From contig NZ_CP063812.1 in the NCBI RefSeq assembly GCF_015277855.1, forward strand, positions 2,976,001 to 3,040,000: 64,000 nt of DNA. The letters run 5' to 3'. A program made the translations under genes and the position numbers. This document shows, piece after piece, positions 12,291 through 50,674 of the stretch. Position 1 is the first letter of the stretch, and each line of letters starts with the position of its first letter. The stretch comes from Microbacterium cremeum. Its GTDB lineage: Bacteria; Actinomycetota; Actinomycetes; Actinomycetales; Microbacteriaceae. The notes under the pieces were generated by a model that was given only the letters and a program-made list of their open reading frames with translations, did not search any database and had not been told where the DNA came from.

Positions 12291-12484
12291 GTCCCCCATT
12301 CGGGGGACGATTATCGGATACTGGTGATTCGCATCACGATTGTGTCCCCCATTCGGGGGACGCAATTCAGGTCCCGAGTATGCTCGCCGTGAATTGTGTC
12401 CCCCATTTGGGGGACACAATTGTTTCACCGCCGTCCCCCTTTTGGGGGACACAATTGTTTCACAGCGTCCCCCTTTCGGGGGAC
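12291..12484. repeat. Array of five GTCCCCC/GGGGGAC palindromes
   Basis: Five 18-base palindromes of the form GTCCCCC-N4-GGGGGAC lie at 12291-12308, 12344-12361, 12398-12415, 12433-12450 and 12467-12484. Start-to-start spacings are 53, 54, 35 and 34. The third extends to a 30-base palindrome with flanking AATTGT/ACAATT (12392-12421). The last two spacers share ACAATTGTTTCAC; the first two are unique. The 12151-12507 spacer is less G+C-rich than the genes around it and has no plausible gene. It sits between the 3' end of one minus-strand gene and the 5' end of the LPxTG gene, so operator array, attenuator or mobile repeat are all possible. Confidence 0.85.
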
Positions 12485-12507
12485 ACCATTCGAAAAAGCG
12501 CGAGACG

Positions 12508-32080: not shown

Positions 32081-33004
32081 TTGAGCACCCCTTCCGACGA
32101 GCTGAAGACAGCCGTCATCATCGAGGACGACGCCGAGATCCGGCACGTGCTGGCCGAAGTGCTCGAATCGTCCGGTTTCTCGACCGTCTCGGTCGGCAAC
32201 GGCATCGACGGCGTGCGGGCGGTGCTGACCTACAAGCCGCTGCTGACCACGATCGACGTGAACATGCCGGGGATCGACGGCATCGAGGCGGCCAAGCGCA
32301 TCCGCGCGCAGTCCGACACGTTCATCATCATGCTCACCGGCCTGAGCGACGAGGCCGACGTCATCGCGGGGCTCGGGGCGGGCGCCGACGACTATCTCCT
32401 GAAGCCGTTCCGCCCGCGCGAGCTGCGAGCGCGCGTCGAAGCGCTCCTGCGCCGAGCGCGCGCGGGCGGCGAGGCGCCGGCGACCGCGCCACCCGCCCCG
32501 TCGCAGGGCAGTGTGGGTCCGTCCTTCCCCGCCGTCCGTCCCGCGACCTCGAGCATCCCGACCGCGCCGGCCCCCGACCTCGCCGACTCCGCGGGCCCGA
32601 CCCCGCCGCCGGCCGTCGTGCTGCCGGCGGACGAGGCATCCCTCCCCGCCCCGGCCACGGACGGCGTCGACGGCGAGTGGCTCGAGCATCGCGACCTGCG
32701 TCTTCACCCCGAGAACCGGATCGTCCTGATCGGCGGCGACGAGCTCGATCTCACGCGCACCGAGTTCGATCTGCTCGCCACCCTGCTGGAGTCGAAGCGG
32801 CGCGTGCGCAGCAAGGCGGATCTGACGCTCGTGCTCCGCGGCGAGTCCTACGTCACCAGCTACTTCGTCGGGGATGCCGACAAGCGGGCGGTCGAGGCGC
32901 ACATGACGAATCTGCGCCGCAAGCTGGGCGACAGCGCAGCCAATCCGCGCTACATCGAGACGGTGCGCGGCGTCGGCTACAGGCTGACCTCCGAAGTCGT
33001 CTGA
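32081..33004 (+). CDS. OmpR-family response regulator
   Basis: 307 aa from TTG 32081. The receiver domain has acidic residues IIEDD at 14-17, phospho-acceptor Asp59 (TIDVNMPG) and KPFRPREL. The C-terminal winged helix has LTRTEFDLLATLLE and the typical ending RYIETVRGVGYRL. The two are joined by an unusually long Ala/Pro-rich linker of about 80 residues, which makes it larger than the usual 230 aa. The likely partner is the histidine kinase at 34851. A bidirectional terminator follows. Confidence 0.9.
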   Translation: MSTPSDELKTAVIIEDDAEIRHVLAEVLESSGFSTVSVGNGIDGVRAVLTYKPLLTTIDVNMPGIDGIEAAKRIRAQSDTFIIMLTGLSDEADVIAGLGAGADDYLLKPFRPRELRARVEALLRRARAGGEAPATAPPAPSQGSVGPSFPAVRPATSSIPTAPAPDLADSAGPTPPPAVVLPADEASLPAPATDGVDGEWLEHRDLRLHPENRIVLIGGDELDLTRTEFDLLATLLESKRRVRSKADLTLVLRGESYVTSYFVGDADKRAVEAHMTNLRRKLGDSAANPRYIETVRGVGYRLTSEVV

Positions 33005-45180: not shown

Positions 45181-45181
45181 C

Positions 45182-45274
45182 CGCACGCACACGGGGTACC
45201 CGCACGCGCACGGGGTACCCGCACGCACAGGGGGTACCCGAAGCACACGGGGTGCCGCACGCGCACGGGGTACC
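45182..45274. repeat. Five tandem 17-19-bp units containing GGGTACC
   Basis: Units of the form CGCACGCRCACGGGGTACC start at 45182, 45201, 45220, 45239 and 45256. The fourth is shortened and altered to GGGTGC. They directly follow the long inverted repeat and end before the rplQ terminator. With the other elements they fill the 45051-45357 spacer, in which I see no gene. Confidence 0.8.
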
Positions 45275-45282
45275 CGAACGCA

Positions 45283-48774: not shown

Positions 48775-48839
48775 ATGCCCGCCGACACCCCCGCGCTCTC
48801 GTCGCGCACCGCGGCTCCCGGCATCCGTCACCCCCGCTC

Positions 48840-48990
48840 CCTCGCACCCTCGCACCTTCGCACCCTCGCGCCTTCGCACCCTCGCACCTTCGCACCCTCG
48901 CGCCTTCGCACCCTCGCGCCCTCGCGCCCTCGCGCCCTCGCCTCGCCTCGCCTCGCCTCGCCTCGCCTCGCCTCGCCTCGCCTCGCCTCG
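48840..48990. repeat. Microsatellite: twelve 8-mers then eleven CCTCG 5-mers
   Basis: Twelve 8-base units (CCTCGCAC, CTTCGCAC or CCTCGCGC) fill 48840-48935; eleven exact CCTCG units fill 48936-48990 and abut the first stem-loop. No credible gene; frames through it give only low-complexity peptides. Such arrays change length by slippage. Confidence 0.85.
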
Positions 48991-49065
48991 AGGTTGAGAA
49001 ACCACGCGCAGGTTGAGACTCTCGCTGCAACGCGGTTCCTCAACCTATATGTGGTTTCTCAACCT
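48991..49065. repeat. Stem-loop element, copy 1
   Basis: AGGTTGAGAAACCAC-N4-AGGTTGAG (48991-49017) pairs with CTCAACCT-N6-GGTTTCTCAACCT (49039-49065); only the central bases fail to pair. The 21-base loop ends in GCGGTTC. Two more copies lie at 50202-50274 and 50357-50430. This copy sits 59 bases upstream of the nuclease-like gene. Confidence 0.8.
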
Positions 49066-49124
49066 CAACGTCCGGGCCGGGCGCGGGTCTCGCCGCTCCT
49101 CCCCAGGCGCGGCGGCTGCGCGAG

Positions 49125-50225
49125 GTGTCCACAGATCCGGCGTCGGCCTGCGGCGAGCGGATGCCGACGGCCGAGCATGAGGCGATGCACGCCGCCTCAG
49201 CCACCACCCCTGCGGTCACCGCGCCGGCCGCGGTCAAGCCGTCGCCCGTCGAACTGCATGTCGCGCGCGACACCGCCTTCGGCGCGCCGAGCCTCAGGAA
49301 TCGCCACATGTACGTACGAGTACGCGCGGGCGTGTACGCGCCGCGGGCGGCGTGGGAGGCGCTCGCGCCGTGGGAGAGGTATCTCGCGCGGGTGCACGCG
49401 TACGCGCTCGTCGCGCCCGGCGCGATCTTCGCGTACGAGTCGGCGGCGGCGCTGCGCGGACTGCCGATCTTCGGCGAGCCTCGCGACATCCACGTCTTCG
49501 CGCCCGGCCGTACGTCGTCGCGTCGCTTCGGCGACGTGTGCGTGCACACCGGCGTCGACGGGCGGGTCGTCGAGCGGCTACAGGGATTCGCCCTCACGTC
49601 GGCCGCCGACACCGCGATCGACCTGATGCGCGTGCTGCCGCCTGCGTTCGGGCTGGCCGTGGGAGATGCGGTCATCTCGCCGGCGCAGGGCGGGAGCGTC
49701 GCCCGGGAGTCGCTCGTGACGCTCGCGGAATGCCAGGAGCACCGCCGCGGACGCGGGCGCCTCATCCTGCTCCTCCCGATGCTCGACCCGCTCGCCGAGT
49801 CCACCGGGGAGTCCGTCAGTCGCGCCGTCATCGTCTGGTCCGGCTTCGAGCCGCCCGAACTGCAGGTCGTCTTCCGCTCGGACGGCTTCAGCGACCGCGT
49901 GGACTTCGCCTGGCGCAGCGTGCGCGGAATCGGAGAGTCCGACGGCTACGGGAAGTACCTCGGCGAGACCCCCGGAGAGACGGTGCGCAGCGTCATGGAC
50001 GAGAAGAAGCGCGAGAACCGACTGCGGCGCGTGTGCCGCGCCTTCGACCGCTGGGACATGAACGAGGCCATGGAGGTCACGCCGCTGGTGCGCCGCCTCG
50101 ACGCCATGGGCATTCCGCGCGTCGCGCGCCCCCGCCCCGGCCTTCTCGTGATGACGAACCGCCGCTCCTCCCCCGCCTCCGCGCCCGCGCCTGCGCCCGC
50201 GGTTGAGAAACCACGCAAAGGTTGA
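49125..50225 (+). CDS. AbiEi/Vsr-like protein: winged helix plus nuclease-like domain
   Basis: 366 aa from GTG 49125; ATGs at 49161 and 49182 are alternatives and none has a clear ribosome binding site. The N-terminal half (VYAPRAAWEALAPWERYLARV, then AIFAYESAAALRGLP) resembles the AbiEi-type antitoxin-like domain of actinobacterial proteins. The C-terminal half has SFEPPELQ-like spacing: WSGFEPPELQVVF, RVDFAWRSVRGIGESDGYGKY and MDEKKRENRLRR, matching the DxxW/E-x-DG-K-Y pattern of Vsr/DUF559-like PD-(D/E)xK nucleases. The stop codon lies inside stem-loop copy 2. No toxin gene adjoins. Activity is inferred. Confidence 0.7.
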   Translation: MSTDPASACGERMPTAEHEAMHAASATTPAVTAPAAVKPSPVELHVARDTAFGAPSLRNRHMYVRVRAGVYAPRAAWEALAPWERYLARVHAYALVAPGAIFAYESAAALRGLPIFGEPRDIHVFAPGRTSSRRFGDVCVHTGVDGRVVERLQGFALTSAADTAIDLMRVLPPAFGLAVGDAVISPAQGGSVARESLVTLAECQEHRRGRGRLILLLPMLDPLAESTGESVSRAVIVWSGFEPPELQVVFRSDGFSDRVDFAWRSVRGIGESDGYGKYLGETPGETVRSVMDEKKRENRLRRVCRAFDRWDMNEAMEVTPLVRRLDAMGIPRVARPRPGLLVMTNRRSSPASAPAPAPAVEKPRKG

Positions 50226-50274
50226 GGCACCCCGCGCCGCGCGGTTCCTCAACCTACGTGTGGTTTCTCAACCT
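50202..50274. repeat. Stem-loop element, copy 2
   Basis: Left arm 50202-50226, right arm 50248-50274, loop ending GCGGTTC, as in copy 1. The left arm encodes the last residues (VEKPRKG) and the stop of the nuclease-like gene. Confidence 0.8.
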
Positions 50275-50350
50275 CCATGTGGTTTCTCACCCAACCTGTG
50301 GTTTCTCACCACACGTGTGGCTTCTCACCCCACGTGAGGTTTCTGAGGGC
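50257..50350. repeat. Five degenerate 18-19-bp GTGGTTTCTCA units
   Basis: Units beginning near 50257, 50276, 50294, 50312 and 50331 share (A/C)GTGTGGTTTCTCA with drift toward the last. They look like tandem duplications of the right arm of stem-loop copy 2, whose right arm forms the first unit. Confidence 0.7.
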
Positions 50351-50356
50351 CGGTTG

Positions 50357-50430
50357 AGGTTGAGAAACCATGCATAGGTTGAAACACCCCGCGCCGCGCG
50401 GTTCCTCAACCTACGTGTGGTTTCTCAACC
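50357..50430. repeat. Stem-loop element, copy 3
   Basis: Left arm 50357-50382 and right arm 50404-50430, loop again ending GCGCGGTTC. Followed by one more GGGTTTCTCAAC half-unit (50437-50448). Confidence 0.8.
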
Positions 50431-50523
50431 TCCGTAGGGTTTCTCAACGCACGACGGCGCCGGGAGGACGACAGCGGCGACAGCGCCGGAGAGCCGATGC
50501 GCGACGGCGCCCGAGAGCAAGGG

Positions 50524-50655
50524 CGACAGCGACAGCAGCGACAGCGACAGCGACAGCAGCGACAGCGACAGCAGCGACAGCGACAGCAGCGACAGCAGCG
50601 GCAGCAGCGACAGCGACAGCAGCGACAGCGACAGCGACGGCGACGACGACGACGG
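50524..50655. repeat. (GACAGC)n microsatellite
   Basis: About 130 bases of GACAGC and AGC units with late drift to GACGGC/GAC, ending 20 bases from the stop of the DsbA-like gene. With the stem-loops it fills 50226-50674; no gene seen. Confidence 0.85.
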
Positions 50656-50674
50656 CGGATGCCGGGGGCCGCGG

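Follow-up and report, generated by a model that had tools for sequence, protein, structure and literature searches.

What is a single nuclease-like gene, bracketed by palindromes, doing beside a ribosomal locus, and does it belong together with the repeats around it? The window, a stretch of 64,000 nt (G000:C1:2976001-3040000) on the single 3.98-Mb contig of the Microbacterium cremeum genome (G000), contains a unit of about 1.9 kb between IF-1 (infA) and a DsbA-like thioredoxin gene, the latter followed by an M24 peptidase gene (map). All features that the initial annotation had described in this unit were found again at the same positions (Table 1). The stop codon of the 366-codon gene (50223-50225) lies within downstream palindrome 1, and alternative starts for the gene are ATG 49161 or ATG 49185. 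The 8-mer, CCTCG and GACAGC arrays at the edges had been counted among the parts of the unit. They are absent from the locus of the nearest relative, L164 of Microbacterium salsuginis (77% protein identity), and were therefore dropped as components and are regarded as local low-complexity DNA outside the unit. An RNA family search gave nothing above any gathering score, and weak microRNA-precursor matches were read as hairpin artefacts. Elsewhere in the window we observed a 35-nt tandem repeat (2.7 copies, with a CCCCCTTTTGGGGG hairpin) at 12398-12490, a 19-nt tandem repeat (CCGCACGCACACGGGGTAC, 5.5 copies) at 45181-45282 and, outside the unit, a lone half-box GGTTTCTCAACC (≤1 mismatch) at 32174.

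Table 1. Features of the unit and its edges, in window coordinates.
Feature	Position	Strand	Remarks
8/16-mer array	48829-48941		
CCTCG x11 array	48936-48990		
Upstream palindrome	48990..49066	.	Inverted arms, GGTTGAGAAACC-type boxes at 19-nt spacing
Single long gene, 366 codons	49125..50225	+	GTG start as listed
AbiEi-like half	49245..49787	+	Codons 41-221
Vsr/I-Bth0305I-like nuclease domain	49794..50120	+	Codons 224-332
Downstream palindrome 1	50201..50275	.	Codes for the last codons of the gene and its TGA stop
Tandem run of box copies	50243..50344	-	19-nt period, 5.4 copies
Downstream palindrome 2	50356..50432	.	First box 157 nt past the first box of palindrome 1
GACAGC-type array	about 50523-50657		

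The predicted protein is a fusion of an AbiEi-like DNA-binding half and a Vsr/I-Bth0305I-like nuclease half. Structure prediction, which had been proposed as a check, gave fold matches of both kinds across residues 41-332, bearing out the AbiEi-like N-terminus and the Vsr-like C-terminus that the initial annotation had suspected; residues 2-33 have pLDDT values below 50. Residues E229, D260, E271, D273 and K277 (also Q247 and Y278) are invariant across 48 rows of relatives, and the PADLOC AbiEi model matches 38 of 40 family members. Vsr and TnsA, nucleases of DNA repair and transposition, are examples of enzymes that share the fold of the nuclease half. Searches of the window protein against Pfam and NCBIfam yielded 0 families each at E ≤ 1, Foldseek by itself gave no match at E ≤ 0.001, and weak matches to RifR/thioesterase and ribosomal S20 sequences in the PDB were discarded. 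No HUH (IS200/IS605-type) tyrosine transposase domain was found in the window protein, in agreement with the earlier suggestion that a nuclease-like protein stands in place of a tyrosine transposase. No AbiEii nucleotidyltransferase partner adjoins the gene, the unit consisting of one gene with IF-1 and the DsbA-like gene as neighbours.

A homologue (E ≤ 0.001) is present in 86 of the 99 genomes of the genus, G000 included. From among the matches listed, 110 loci (30 + 80) were read; palindromes were sought within 500 nt of the gene, scores of at least 14 were counted as strong, and control pieces were taken from the same loci, 950-1450 nt away. Of the 110 loci, 94 have a strong palindrome upstream, compared with 6 of 105 distal control pieces, and 89 have one downstream, compared with 7 of 103. 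Strong palindromes flank both sides in 80 of the loci, and 30 of the 110 are without one on one or both sides. The two palindromes of a locus are alike, with a mean similarity of 41, compared with 11 for palindromes from different loci (top of 10,000 permutations, 14.6), and the own downstream palindrome is the best partner out of 80 for 60 loci; non-matching best palindromes (scores 8-10) occur in 6 of the 80 two-sided loci. Unrelated repeats around homologues had been named as an observation that would speak against the initial annotation; instead, homologues elsewhere are flanked by matched palindromes of their own. In the downstream flank of three loci at the nusG site (L085, L090 and L095) a short GCGAACGCCCCGC...GCGGGGCGTTCGC palindrome recurs, possibly a local terminator.

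The palindrome core varies by lineage (GAGAAACC, ATAAACG, GAGAGTGCA, GAGACTGCA, GTTTGGGGCGC, CACCATCGAACC and others), and it does so together with the protein. On the protein tree the palindrome type changes 9 times, against a shuffled mean of 29.1. Among the 68 of 80 loci with an intact protein and palindromes matching at ≥22, protein identity and palindrome similarity are correlated (Spearman 0.377; 0 of 2,000 permutations as high), and within single sites the correlation is 0.53-0.62.

Copies of the stem-loops, for which a genome-wide search had been suggested, do occur elsewhere in G000. With the reversed pattern serving as control in all palindrome searches, GGTTGAGAAACCAC (≤1 mismatch) was found at 25 places per strand (50 in total, 25 exact; control 0), forming 10 clusters besides the window's own. 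The paired pattern GAGAAACCAN{25,55}TGGTTTCTC gave 18 matches, some of them nested, which represent 14 distinct elements (control 0): three sit in the unit and the rest at 11 other places on the chromosome, one of these being an eleventh further place beyond the 10 GGTTGAGAAACCAC clusters. The window-type palindrome is an inverted doublet of 65 nt that could fold into a hairpin. A second family in the same genome, GAGAGTGCA...TGCACTCTC, is likewise 65 nt long; it numbers 18 distinct copies, including one immediately upstream of the paralogue at the gcvP site (L107, G000:C1:1444247-1448224), which is 40% identical to the window protein. Each family thus stands beside its own paralogue, so that two pairs exist side by side in G000. 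The palindrome of a third paralogue was found once in this genome, at its own flank only, against 2 for the reversed control.

Across the genus, counts are of pattern matches, with nested ones counted apart, and the strict patterns undercount. The GAGAAACC type occurs in 23 of 99 genomes (≤32 per genome), the ATAAACG type in 17 (≤55, the top strict count in a range of 1-55) and the GAGAGTGCA type in 8 (≤20); the reversed controls gave 0 in all 99 genomes for each type. The ATAAACG genomes overlap neither other set, and the GAGAAACC and GAGAGTGCA sets overlap in G000 only. By a strict rule and among the loci read, a homologue flanked by the same core is present in 17 of the 23 GAGAAACC genomes and in 11 of the 17 ATAAACG genomes, several of the remaining ATAAACG genomes carrying near-variant cores. 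In the remaining 6 GAGAAACC genomes the loci read include no homologue flanked by palindromes of this type; their orphan matches number 29 in G033, 12 in G037, 5 in G092, 2 in G018, 1 in G013 and 2 in G030, the sole homologue match of G030 being a fragment outside the loci read. The orphan repeats of G033 and G037 may have been left after gene loss or may be served by another protein. The 65-nt form of the GAGAGTGCA type has 8-20 copies in G000, G094 and G051, each with a homologue so flanked; in G068 a different form, 55 nt long, is present 6 times with no so-flanked homologue seen, and four genomes have 1-2 copies. At the infA-dsbA junction of G086 and G051 (L240 and L242) a different palindrome family, TTCATCCGTCGCA...TGCGACGGATGAA, was observed with no homologue seen beside it, in tandem in L242.

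The initial annotation had considered the unit an insertion into the ribosomal locus. This place proved to be no one-off; the genus has at least three resident sites that recur, this one among them. The 110 loci divide into 34 at gcvP/CAAX protease, 21 at infA/dsbA/map, 15 at nusG and 40 elsewhere (Pfam check). IF-1 was found in 95 of 99 genomes, and the comparison of 30 IF-1 junctions revealed both presence and absence. DsbA lies ≤300 nt from IF-1, so that the junction is empty, in 19 of the 30; the unit lies between IF-1 and DsbA in G000, G074 and G082, a distant homologue does so in G010, and in six of the 30 a homologue or a fragment of one lies beyond DsbA.

The resident gene sites are old and reused, and the small palindromes turn over. 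The same pattern gave 17 matches (13 distinct elements) in G076 and 4 in its close relative G036, the two being 91% identical at the gene locus. When five G076 elements were sought in G036, three sites aligned through without the element, a fourth was also empty, its spacer being shorter, and at the fifth the spacer had diverged and no element could be recognised; these sites come from one close-relative pair, in which insertion and loss are not distinguished. No target-site duplication was seen at the five sites and, by eye, no shared target sequence is obvious among them. For an element of G000 itself, locus L003 was rejected as a clean empty site, the matches in G049 and G062 lying farther apart than in the query and being therefore uninformative. 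As judged by eye from the flanks, a stop codon immediately precedes five copies (L073, L336, L339, L343 and L345), and three G076 copies (L335, L338 and L341) separate one gene's stop from the probable start of the following gene.

Arm-swap permutations were run on copies from G076 (9), G071 (8), G000 (8), G053 (12) and G055 (15 of 21) and, in a second run, from the second family of G000 (17 of 18) and from G094 (15 of 20). Pairing beyond the shared consensus was detected only in G053 (73 of 20,000 permutations) and G055 (46 of 20,000); arm covariation between copies was absent from both G000 families, G071, G076 and G094, and in 5 of 7 sets the attempt to prove a folded substrate by compensatory changes thus failed. 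The arms differ at fixed positions. This was tested on 7 of the 8 G000 copies from the first run and on the 15 G094 copies from the second. In G094 the arms disagree at position 27 in 14 of 15 elements (as extreme in 26 of 20,000 permutations), with A on one arm and C on the other in 13 of these 14; in G000 they disagree at position 11 in 7 of 7, which alone is not significant (2,822 of 20,000). The elements are therefore polar, imperfect palindromes. E. coli REPs are likewise described as imperfect palindromes with a bulge (PMC8266576).

Taken together, the gene and its palindromes are probably a nuclease-palindrome pair that functions in the manner of REP/RAYT (REPIN) systems although its enzyme is unrelated to theirs. 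To judge from the sequences, the protein would very probably have dedicated recognition of its own palindromes, and the binding of the stem-loops, offered as an alternative by the initial annotation, is accepted here in that sense; that the protein also drives the spread of the palindromes, by copying or turnover, we regard as moderately likely. In the mechanism that we envisage, the AbiEi-like half would bind the boxes of its own palindrome and the Vsr-like half, as its fold and invariant residues suggest, would nick or cut at or beside it. Repair or replication at the break might then copy the element, and such copying would keep the palindromes on the two sides of the gene alike, make them change jointly with the protein and seed elements at other intergenic places. 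This reading is supported by the two-sided association, the co-divergence with the protein, the dispersal of the cognate type, the presence/absence between two relatives and the polarity. Counting against it are the orphan repeats, the low copy number, the lack of arm covariation in most sets, the third paralogue's palindrome that is not dispersed, the missing target-site duplication, the null result of Foldseek, the 30 of 110 loci without a strong palindrome on both sides and the 6 of 80 mismatched pairs. The earlier suggestion of self-spreading repeats is thus upheld in part: the difference between G076 and G036 argues for spread, and the protein's role in it is what we infer.

A less likely explanation, though one with arguments of its own, is that the protein is only an autoregulator, an AbiEi-like repressor for which the flanking palindromes are operators and the scattered copies a small regulon or decayed operators. 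AbiEi proteins bind inverted repeats in their own promoter and autoregulate (PMC7319586), and here the gene is closely preceded by a palindrome, the box arrays with their 19-nt step resemble binding sites on duplex DNA, and arm covariation is absent in the gene's own genome. The G076 copies that precede a likely start codon could act as operators as well, and therefore give more weight to this explanation and less to the nuclease-palindrome pair. However, downstream palindromes are equally present, where an operator of the gene itself would be useless, five of the copies directly follow a stop codon, element sites are empty in a close relative, and the residues of the nuclease domain are invariant. 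Quite improbable, in our view, is that the palindromes are structural or terminator repeats spread by other means, which the protein polices (e.g., by cutting extruded hairpins) under selection that keeps gene and repeat together; the copies after stop codons, the fold shared with Vsr and TnsA and the orphan repeats of G033 and G037 would fit this, but it leaves the two-sided flanking and the joint change with the protein unexplained. A solitary AbiE-type defence or toxin-antitoxin gene that lies in repeat-rich DNA by chance has hardly any likelihood, since the PADLOC matches in its favour are opposed by the lack of an adjoining AbiEii-type partner between IF-1 and the DsbA-like gene, by the 49 of 110 loci at gcvP/CAAX protease or nusG sites and by a palindrome association far exceeding the control.

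Beyond the genus, the family profile (E ≤ 1e-10) has matches in 158 of 198 genomes from the order and in 63 of 72 genera, matches that may include relatives without the palindrome habit. Among 22 loci read in other genera, 8 have an up/downstream repeat score ≥20 above their own shuffled maximum, and several show no flanking repeat match, shuffled scores reaching 35. The 61 named records are mostly Microbacterium, the rest being broader-label MAGs and one Frigoribacterium. A phage or viral origin was rejected, no homologue being confirmed in viral contigs and none found in phages; plasmids gave 2 matches, at 31-33% identity.

The nuclease-palindrome pair might be a new, minimal class of mobile DNA. 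One nuclease of the AbiEi-Vsr type, in the absence of any HUH, DDE, serine or tyrosine transposase, would copy a polar palindrome of 65 nt to other parts of actinobacterial chromosomes, several pairs of different specificity would coexist in a genome, and the class would reach across much of the order, as an independently invented REP/RAYT way of life; the chances for and against this wider claim seem to us evenly balanced. Among open-access PMC papers (no preprints), we found none in which dispersed palindromes are connected with AbiEi, Vsr-like or DUF559 proteins. A second, unrelated enzyme with this architecture would mean that evolution can arrive at the arrangement repeatedly, and would provide an independent test system. 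The many naturally diverged protein/palindrome pairs are a ready set for the DNA-recognition rules of the AbiEi fold, and they would account for one kind of intergenic repeat in Microbacterium and its relatives.

REP/RAYT systems are, to our knowledge, the case in which a chromosomal enzyme lives with dispersed palindromes, and the way in which that enzyme spreads them is still open. The present unit shares with them a gene bracketed by palindromes, one right at the stop codon, and with REPINs the inverted doublets, here of 65 nt, that could fold into a hairpin. They also have in common imperfect palindromes that are dispersed in the genome and co-diverge with the gene (PMC2817692, PMC8266576 and PMC3116915). 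The abundance of the palindromes there is tied to the cognate gene, a tie that may hold here too, though with exceptions; a resident gene at fixed sites with changing repeats is a further likeness (PMC2817692). Differences lie in the number of copies, 1-55 per genome by strict patterns here versus the more than 100 usual for REPs, and in the range, the present genes being actinobacterial whereas RAYTs were thought gammaproteobacterial in 2010 (both PMC2817692), a range that PMC3116915 extends to Nostoc. The AbiEi fold is shared with the antitoxins of type IV toxin-antitoxin systems (S. agalactiae AbiEi, M. tuberculosis Rv2827c), but the window protein has an extra C-terminal nuclease-like domain, its gene lacks an AbiEii partner, and its repeats are two-sided and dispersed. 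The likeness to Vsr, which uses Asp51 and His69 (PMC11879112), and to the homing endonuclease I-Bth0305I is one of predicted fold; unlike a homing endonuclease gene, the window gene is not in an intron or intein, and the five element sites have, by eye, no obvious common target. RAYTs are HUH/IS200-type tyrosine transposases, whereas the window protein is an AbiEi-like and Vsr-like fusion. The comparison with REP/RAYT made by the initial annotation was nevertheless right as to the bracketed gene, the co-divergence and the dispersed cognate palindromes, and because the architecture is alike but no HUH domain was found, we regard the unit as a non-homologous analogue of REP/RAYT.
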